Below, piece by piece: positions 8,203-24,036 of a stretch of DNA of 39,062 nt (positions within the stretch are counted from its first letter, which is position 1; each line of letters begins with the position of its first letter). The notes beneath the pieces were generated by a model. It did no database searches, was not told where the DNA came from, and worked only from the letters and a program-made list of their open reading frames with translations. The position numbers were made by a program, and so were the translations under genes. Source of the stretch: Psychromonas hadalis ATCC BAA-638 (GTDB taxonomy: Bacteria > Pseudomonadota > Gammaproteobacteria > Enterobacterales > Psychromonadaceae); assembly GCF_000420245.1 (NCBI RefSeq), contig NZ_ATUO01000013.1, positions 1 to 39,062 on the forward strand, read 5' to 3'.

Positions 8203-8514
8203 TTAAAATTTTAATTCATGTTGCTTTTCAAGTTTTTCTTGATACTTTACATACTTTCTTATCATTTCAGCATCAACTCCAACTGTGTCTACACAATATC
8301 CCTTCGCCCAAAAATGGTTACCCCAATATGGCTTTTTCTTTAAGTATGGGAATTGCTTAAAGACCCTTATTGCGGTCCGCCTTTTTACTGCTCCAAGAAC
8401 TTCTGAAATAGATCTTTCGGGGGGGGTACCAATAAGTGTACATGATTTGGCTGTACGTTTAGCTCTACAACAGAGCCTAATAAGAATAGATTGCCATAGA
8501 TTTGCTTTTTGTGC
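8203..8514 (-). pseudogene. IS200/IS605-family transposase TnpA, frameshifted and lacking its N-terminus
   Basis: On the minus strand one frame reads GSVVELNVQPNHVHLLV (about 8484-8434), which contains the HUH metal motif His-Val-His. The frame then breaks at a run of eight C (eight G on the plus strand, 8419-8426). A second frame continues with PERSISEVLGAVKRRTAIRV, GNHFWAKGYCVDTVGVD and IRKYVKYQEK, where the nucleophilic Tyr of Y1 transposases should lie. It ends at 8203. One more or three fewer C residues would approximately restore the gene. Upstream of the HUH motif, stop codons and unrelated sequence replace the usual N-terminal strand, so the element is probably dead even without the C-run. 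Confidence 0.75.
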
Positions 8515-8817
8515 TTCTTTCATTATTCGTAAGTACTCCATAGGTGGGAAAGTCGGAGTGTGCCATAATATGTCCCTCTCCAATTTTCTCCTATACTCCG
8601 TGCTGGGTCGCTCTAGTTTTGATTCCTACAGGGTGTAGGCGAGAATACATTCAATTACTGTTTACTTATGCAAGTAGCTAGTGGACTTTTTATGCCTGAC
8701 ACTGGTTTTTGTTTATACAAAGATAAGTTGCAATAGTTCGCAACCTTTTGTCAACGTTGTTATCAATCAATATTGGGTATTGTGAAAGCCGTTAAATAGT
8801 TAAAGGCCTTCCTTACT

Positions 8818-20002: not shown

Positions 20003-20031
20003 TTGATAAATCGTCATTTGTAGAGTATCCT
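20003..20031 (+). promoter_or_regulatory. Predicted alpha operon promoter
   Basis: TTGATA (20003-20008) and TATCCT (20026-20031) are spaced by 17 bp. Transcription would start near 20038, giving a short leader of about 40 bases before the GTG of rpsM. In E. coli S4 binds a pseudoknot at this start site; such a fold was not confirmed here. Confidence 0.55.
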
Positions 20032-20078
20032 ACCGGGCTTTTCGCAAATGAATTTTAATTAATATTAAGGAGTGCATA

Positions 20079-20435
20079 GTGGCCCGTATCGCTGGCATTA
20101 ACGTTCCTGATCATAAGCATATCGTAATTGCATTAACTGCAGTTTTTGGTATTGGTAAAACTAGCGCACAAAAAATCTGTGCTGCAACTGGTTTTGCTGA
20201 ATCAACGAAGCTTAGCGATCTGGAAGAATCACAAATCGAAGCTCTTCGTAAAGAAGTAGCTAATTTCACCGTTGAAGGTGATCTACGTCGTGAAGTATCT
20301 ATGAACATCAAACGTCTTATGGATGTTGGTTGTTATCGTGGACTTCGTCATCGTCGCAACTTGCCTGTCCGTGGACAGCGTTCTAAAACGAATGCTCGTA
20401 CACGTAAAGGTCCGCGTAAAGCAATTCGTAAATAA
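20079..20435 (+). CDS. rpsM: Ribosomal protein S13 (uS13), GTG start
   Basis: The 118-residue protein ([20 protein letters not shown]) has a helix-hairpin-helix-like N-terminal domain and a basic C-terminal tail with [21 protein letters not shown]13 contacts the P-site tRNA and forms bridges to the 50S. It starts with GTG after TAAGGAG; E. coli rpsM also starts with GTG, inside the S4-regulated pseudoknot. It is the first gene of the alpha operon, 15 bases before rpsK. Confidence 0.97.
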
Positions 20436-22929: not shown

Positions 22930-22950
22930 TCTTCTTTCTAAGTAACATTA

Positions 22951-22979
22951 AAAAAGCCGAACTTATGTTCGGCTTTTTT
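22951..22979 (+). terminator. Intrinsic terminator of the alpha operon
   Basis: AAAAAGCCGAAC (22951-22962) pairs with GTTCGGCTTTTT (22967-22978) around a TTAT loop, ending in a T-run. The A-rich upstream arm makes it bidirectional, but oxyR, which runs towards it, ends 130 bases away, so it may serve both. Confidence 0.92.
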
Positions 22980-22990
22980 GTGTCTATAAA

Positions 22991-23134
22991 TAAAGTCGGG
23001 TCAGATCAAACTTTATTGTCTGCCAAGTCATTTTTCATCGAATCACTCATTAGCCCTTTGTTTATGGGGTCATAGAATGAAAAATTGAAGTTATTATAAA
23101 AGATGAAATTTAACTTTGATCTGACCCGACTTTA
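22991..23134. mobile_element. 144-bp element with perfect 20-bp terminal inverted repeats
   Basis: TAAAGTCGGGTCAGATCAAA at 22991-23010 is exactly the reverse complement of 23115-23134. The 104-bp interior has no gene but contains a weaker CATTTTTCAT/ATGAAAAA pairing. The size, perfect ends and lack of coding capacity fit a non-autonomous mobile element. Ends of the GTCGGGTCAGATC type are, from memory, often seen beside REP-associated tyrosine transposases; this link is unverified. The right end overlaps the last codons of oxyR. Confidence 0.7.
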
Positions 23135-24036
23135 ATATATTGCTTGAGGCGACGGTTAACCGTGGTTGTAATAAGTGTTGAGAGTTGTTCAAAACAGATC
23201 TTACGCACACTCTTTTTTCTACAAACTAGTCCGATCGTTCTACTCGGAATCGGCTCTTTGAACGGAATATATTTAATCCCTGCTTGATGACGGCTGGTTG
23301 GAATGGCTAATTGTGGCAGTAGTGTTAAACCATTGTCAGCGCTGATCATATGGCGTAACGTTTCTAAACTGGTTGCTTTAAAACTATTGTCTTCGATTGC
23401 CCCCGCTGCAAAACAGAATCCCATTGCTTGATCACGCAGGCAGTGTCCGTCAGCAAGCATTAATAGGTGTTCACCTGAGAGCTTATTAATATCAATATCG
23501 CTTTTATTCGCCCACGGATGTGACTCTGAGAGCGCTAGTTCTAGTGGTTCATCGTAGAGAGAATACTGCTGTAAAGATTCCATACTAGGCAGTAGTGCTA
23601 GCATAAGACAATCTAATTCACCCTCTTCAAGCTGTTTTATAAGTACATCCGTTTGGTTTTCATGTAGATAGAGCTCTAAATCTGGAAAATGTTGTTTCAT
23701 CGTCGGAATGATCAGGGGCAGAAGGTAGGGAGCCACGGTGGGTATCAAACCAATATGCAACGTACCTTGCATCGGTTCAGTATGGCTTTTTGCTATCTCT
23801 TTTAAGGATTTTGCCTCCAGTAAAATTATTTTTGCTTTGGCAACAATATCTAGCCCTGCTTGTGTGAATATCACCTTACGTGATGAACGCTCCATCAATT
23901 GAACATTTAGCTCATCTTCAAGTTTACGTATTTGCCCACTTAATGTTGGTTGGCTGACAAAGCATTTTTCAGCTGCTTTGCGAAAATGTTTTAACTCTTC
24001 AAGGGCGATTAAATATTCTAAATCTCTAAAATTCAT
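23110..24036 (-). CDS. oxyR: Hydrogen-peroxide sensor/regulator OxyR
   Basis: The 308-residue LysR-type protein has an N-terminal winged helix-turn-helix (FRKAAEKCFVSQPTLSGQIR, about 18-37) and a LysR substrate domain. The redox pair Cys199 and Cys208 lies in GHCLRDQAMGFCFAAGA, just as in E. coli OxyR. Peroxide or nitrosative stress forms the disulphide, and the protein then activates catalase, peroxidase and related genes. The last seven codons (KVGSDQS) and the stop are encoded by the right end of the 144-bp inverted-repeat element. The native C-terminus has therefore been replaced, although total length stays near the usual 305. This tail is poorly conserved, so function is probably retained. 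Confidence 0.92.
   Translation of the reverse strand: MNFRDLEYLIALEELKHFRKAAEKCFVSQPTLSGQIRKLEDELNVQLMERSSRKVIFTQAGLDIVAKAKIILLEAKSLKEIAKSHTEPMQGTLHIGLIPTVAPYLLPLIIPTMKQHFPDLELYLHENQTDVLIKQLEEGELDCLMLALLPSMESLQQYSLYDEPLELALSESHPWANKSDIDINKLSGEHLLMLADGHCLRDQAMGFCFAAGAIEDNSFKATSLETLRHMISADNGLTLLPQLAIPTSRHQAGIKYIPFKEPIPSRTIGLVCRKKSVRKICFEQLSTLITTTVNRRLKQYIKVGSDQS

Follow-up and report, generated by a model that had tools for sequence, protein, structure and literature searches.

In Psychromonas hadalis ATCC BAA-638, the last seven codons and the stop codon of oxyR are supplied by a 144-bp inverted-repeat element. The best explanation, to which we assign a probability of roughly 85%, is a lineage-specific insertion of the TIRYT family, mobilised in trans, that has added a near-neutral seven-residue tail to a complete OxyR. 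As a non-autonomous element, it would belong to a family of palindromes and terminal inverted repeats (TIRs) specific to this species, and would probably be moved by a Y1 tyrosine transposase of the TIR-associated type (TIRYT) whose gene lies at another place in the genome. Its landing site would be the end of oxyR, no more than one or two codons from the native stop, between the gene and the terminator of the alpha operon. In a frame set by chance, translation would enter an arm and halt at a TAA inside the element, adding KVGSDQS to an otherwise complete protein. The tail would then be kept by tolerance rather than by selection for a new function, with the possible side effect that a strong mRNA stem over the last codons and stop may slow termination.

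Structure of the element at the oxyR 3′ end

An earlier note on the window (the whole 39,062-nt stretch analysed) had described a 144-bp element with perfect 20-bp ends, and this description holds to the base (Table 1). The arms are inverted-complementary at 100% over 20 bp and at 87% over 30 bp, and a single strand of the element folds with z = -6.75 against shuffles. Its right end does encode the C-terminus of OxyR on the minus strand, as had been proposed: the codons read into the arm are AAA GTC GGG TCA GAT CAA AGT TAA, and the protein ends ...RLKQYIKVGSDQS, i.e. ...RLKQYI-KVGSDQS, then stop. The alpha-operon terminator likewise lies at the claimed distance from the other end.

Table 1 Coordinates of the oxyR element, its neighbours and the related copies
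Feature	Location	Strand	Size	Comment
Whole inverted-repeat element, long form	window 22991..23134	.	144 bp	arm, unique interior, arm
Left arm, TAAAGTCGGGTCAGATCAAA	window 22991..23010	+	20 bp	
Right arm	window 23115..23134	-		the left arm's 20 bp on the minus strand; codes for OxyR KVGSDQ
Interior with imperfect inner arm ends	window 23011..23114	.		interior unmatched elsewhere in genome or genus
Final seven OxyR codons (KVGSDQS) and TAA	window 23110..23133	-		element-supplied
oxyR	window 23110..24036	-	308 aa	native 1-300/301 plus seven-residue element-encoded tail
Alpha operon/oxyR bidirectional terminator	window, stem 22950..22979	.		11 bp from element; kept in congeners
Long copy	C28 L057:990-1147		158 bp	
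Long copy	C71 L059:965-1110		146 bp	
Single hairpins	C12, C19, C67, C120			stem ~25 bp, loop ~10 nt
Transposase unit	C2			single hairpin at either end
Y1_Tnp gene of the unit	C2 L053:1986-2711			
Lone arm	C10			no recognisable partner

A palindromic repeat family in the genome

Within the 3.98 Mb of the genome, the arm 15-mer TCGGGTCAGATCAAA has 17 perfect matches, and 23 when up to two mismatches are admitted, compared with 4 for the reversed control. Altogether 19 arms lie at nine loci of this 351-contig draft, which represents one strain of the species, and the earlier note's search for further copies of the 20-bp end is thereby answered in the positive. The 16-mer GTCGGGTCAGATCAAA is present in 0 of 23 congeners, even when one mismatch is tolerated. 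A scan of GTDB genomes for the exact arm returned only four single matches, in unrelated phyla, taken as chance (~7 expected, by a rough estimate of our own for an 18-mer). A related TIR, GGGGTCAGAGTAAA, occurs among the congeners at 5 sites in 2 genomes only, too few for testing generality.

Arms in the family begin (T)AAAGTCGGG, and the foot of the stem carries no GTAG/GTGG tetranucleotide. When read inward in the OxyR frame, 14 of the 19 encode KVGSDQ[T/S/I] followed by a stop, which makes the tail a property of the element; only one change, ACT to AGT (T to S), is private to the oxyR copy. The TIRs of the three long copies (144, 158 and 146 bp) are about 20 bp or more, placing these copies within the MITE range of 70-300 bp, with no capacity to encode a transposase.

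These three copies share arms and are similar in size, and their interiors are mutually unrelated. The interior of the window element gave only weak AT-rich matches in its own genome and the genus, and searches with the C28 and C71 interiors found no further copies; the conservation of the interior among copies that characterises MITEs is thus absent from these three unrelated, unique interiors. Such interiors are not expected of a MITE family that simply copies itself, a point that counts against the best explanation given above. Two routes would fit them: DNA may be captured between two palindrome halves, or the loop may repeatedly decay and be replaced. Relatives with empty C71 sites indicate that the arms and interior there arrived together or that the interior arose inside the element. 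That the TIRYT family mobilises or captures arbitrary stretches of ~85-105 nt between palindrome halves, and targets gene ends as well, is a tentative and rather unlikely proposal; if true, the family would generate new 3′ ends and C-terminal tails.

A TIR-associated tyrosine transposase

The candidate source of mobility is a Y1_Tnp gene on C2, located 3′ of glnE between two full hairpins of the family (PF01797, 51.3 bits against a cut-off of 23). The motifs NHVHLL (HUH) and YRYIELNPVRAKM (catalytic Tyr) are evident in its sequence. The gene is bounded by 29-bp inverted repeats, not GTAG REPs, whose outer ends span ~850 bp. Its product ends ...GRPKVGSDQT, with the last seven residues and the stop provided by the right hairpin. 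The tails of OxyR and the transposase are in the same frame and differ only in the last residue, a near identity that follows from the same element DNA encoding both ends.

The TIR core here, CGGGTCAG, matches GGGGWSAS, a motif of some but not all TIRYTs, at 7/8 positions. The closest homolog, encoded on an Iodobacter plasmid and 60% identical, has a TIR with the same core, ACTGGGGTCAGAGCAAA; a homolog on a P. aeruginosa plasmid has the TIR AAAGGGGACAGATTT, which shares this core and contains the transposase stop codon. The cores of these plasmid TIRs, GGGGTCAG and GGGGACAG, correspond to GGGGWSAS. The Iodobacter transposase ends ahead of its TIR, at GRPVGWRKKSEE, so the ancestor of the transposase family probably had no KVGSDQT tail. 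Searches found no relatives of the C2 transposase in viral contigs and, by sequence, no solved structures.

The earlier note had anticipated a matching REP-associated tyrosine transposase (RAYT). A Y1 gene flanked by the same palindromes is indeed present, but it is of the TIR-associated type rather than a canonical RAYT: it scores 66.5 bits against the curated RAYT model NF047646, below the cut-off of 80, and lacks GTAG repeats. Judged by these sequence features, the unit would best be filed as TIRYT-type, and membership of the canonical GTAG-REP RAYTs fails. A separate remnant of an IS200/IS605-type Y1 transposase lies in the window at 8203-8583 on the minus strand (PF01797, 58.5 bits, covering only profile positions 56-121); its reading frame seems to be broken close to a G run.

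Comparison with known systems

The unit resembles the TIRYT/TIRtron elements (Di Nocera et al. 2013, PMC3733652) in having a Y1/HUH gene bounded by long TIRs unrelated to GTAG REPs, a TIR core that may correspond to the GGGGWSAS reported for TIRYTs (PMC3733652), and a moderate family of scattered TIR copies, some of which overlap the transposase 3′ end. It differs in its imperfect match to that core, in having a full hairpin (stem 25 bp) at either end of the unit in place of one TIR, and in a family of ~10 copies, the long ones with unrelated interiors. GTAG REPs and REPINs with their RAYTs share with this family palindromes that cluster no further than 20 bp from the 3′ ends of genes, in many cases where two genes converge, the occasional provision of a stop codon and a Y1 transposase placed between inverted copies. 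Here, however, the GTAG head is missing, the palindrome is near-perfect, copies number ~10, where REPs usually occur in dozens to hundreds, and the transposase falls under the NCBIfam RAYT threshold given above.

The outcome at oxyR has a close counterpart in Coxiella QMITE1 and QMITE2 (PMC5896051), small inverted-repeat elements at the 3′ ends of functional genes that provide a few C-terminal residues and a stop, as in the mutT tail LQQDIITQ-stop (PMC5896051). The sequences are unrelated, QMITEs have direct repeats, and the gene affected here encodes a global stress regulator. The palindromic elements of Rickettsia (RPEs) are also palindromic repeats translated within host proteins, but unlike the present element they occur inside ORFs as well (PMC3733652). 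Donation of C-termini and stop codons by REPs and MITEs is already published; less usual is the sharing of arms by three long copies with unrelated interiors.

Insertion at gene ends

At the eight other insertion loci, an ORF stop lies within 12 nt of one edge in 8/8 cases, and insertions between divergent genes were found at 0 of these 8. As a background, 400 kb of the same genome was annotated with a crude gene caller, and 7.2% of the intergenic positions in it are no more than 12 nt away from a stop. Eight of eight would then arise by chance with a probability of ~7.5e-10, under a rough null in which insertions are independent of one another and are not selected against at other places. For REPs, positions closer than 20 bp to the 3′ end of a gene, often with the stop supplied by the repeat, have been published (PMC3733652).

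Comparison with relatives identifies the sites prior to insertion. The flank beyond the oxyR element, TATAGACACAAAAAAGCC, resembles that 3′ of oxyR in G008, the closest relative, where the oxyR stop is followed by CTATAGAAACAAAAAAGCCGAAC; its likeness to the sequence past the element here, TTATAGACACAAAAAAGCCGAAC, marks the empty site. Empty sites of the other two long copies (C71 and C28), also found in relatives, show insertion adjoining a stop codon. At C28 the element is flush with a native TAA: with the junction marked by a slash, the empty site in G014 reads GAATAA/TATTG and the occupied one GAATAA/AGTCGGG. The C28 helicase was considered as a second gene with an element-supplied stop and dropped, since the same TAA in G014 means that its stop is native or shared. 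Near C71, at L059 ~1108-1122, the sequence AAAGTGGAGTCA between the gluQ stop and the element looks like a second arm in a degenerate state; the C-terminus of GluQ is IQIEK in this genome and IQI or IQV in several relatives.

Without a mobile element, the structure would be an inverted repeat formed by chance, or the product of a local rearrangement around the terminator. Such an origin would accord with the unique interior and with a count of only nine loci, but it can be given almost no weight against the 17 exact 15-mers, absent from congeners, the link to a transposase and the empty sites in relatives.

Consequences for OxyR and its transcript

The protein is an OxyR-type LysR regulator (NF008361, 440.6 bits against a cut-off of 329), and the earlier note's statement that the remainder is intact stands, with Cys199 and Cys208 at exactly those positions. 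The note had also turned to relatives lacking the element for the same C-terminal residues: KVGSDQS is in none of the 21 congeners with a readable OxyR, where the protein ends at residue 300 or 301 (e.g. ...LKQYx, ...LDEY) with the stop directly after. Ile301 here may be an altered native codon or may have arrived with the element. OxyR of more distant relatives in the order has 296-305 aa and unrelated ends, and the E. coli regulatory domain continues ~nine residues past the aligned part; by this comparison of sequences, 308 aa appears only slightly over the usual range. An AlphaFold model from an 18-sequence alignment keeps the fold and extends the last helix to residue 305, with pLDDT <50 for residues 304-308, and the tail is predicted to be disordered. 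Measured against G001, dN is 0.102 both for the window species and for G008, which gives no sign of extra amino-acid substitution in OxyR on this lineage; synonymous sites are saturated, so that this comparison says little on the time since insertion. The tail is probably harmless.

The further suggestion that a mobile element has been "tamed" as the C-terminus of OxyR is not borne out. That KVGSDQS is selected since it alters OxyR stability, oligomerisation or redox response is very improbable: OxyR is complete and conserved, has both redox cysteines and continues in frame into the tail, but the tail is the consensus of the element in one frame and nearly the transposase's own tail, with only T to S private. 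Its predicted disorder, the variable C-terminus of the OxyR family and a length near that of relatives also make domestication unlikely. Comparable additions are published, with neutrality given as a possibility (PMC5896051). The oxyR insertion alone is no demonstration of domestication. Taken as a near-neutral insertion, it is a recent, clean case of a mobile palindrome editing a protein end, in which a regulator and a transposase carry nearly the same tail, and it suits a test of whether C-terminal tails donated by REPs or TIRs are neutral or whether a stem over the last codons affects expression.

Such a stem might act on the RNA, the 20 bp over the last codons slowing termination or stabilising the oxyR mRNA 3′ end and thereby changing the level of OxyR. 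In folding calculations the oxyR-sense RNA reaches -46.4 kcal/mol (z = -6.2) and the single hairpins -31 to -45 kcal/mol, and other copies lie 0-12 nt after stops. Liang, Rudd and Deutscher reportedly found in 2015 that E. coli REPs within ~15 nt of the stop codon lower translation. This effect is nonetheless doubtful here, as the terminator hairpin already ends the oxyR transcript and the long loop would let the stem form more slowly than in short hairpins.

Most congeners have the terminator stem, AAAAAAGCCGAAC...GTTCGGCTTTTTT, 3′ of oxyR, and with its A- and T-runs it can end transcription of the alpha operon as well as of oxyR, which converge on it. The alpha operon ribosome binding site is found at 20006-20111 on the plus strand (RF00140, 91.4 bits), as expected upstream of the operon. 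Short tandem repeats (TAGTGGT; GGAAGCT) occupy the gap between oxyR and the terminator in G010, G014 and G021 (L074, L070 and L080), indicating repeated gains of sequence at this place within the genus.
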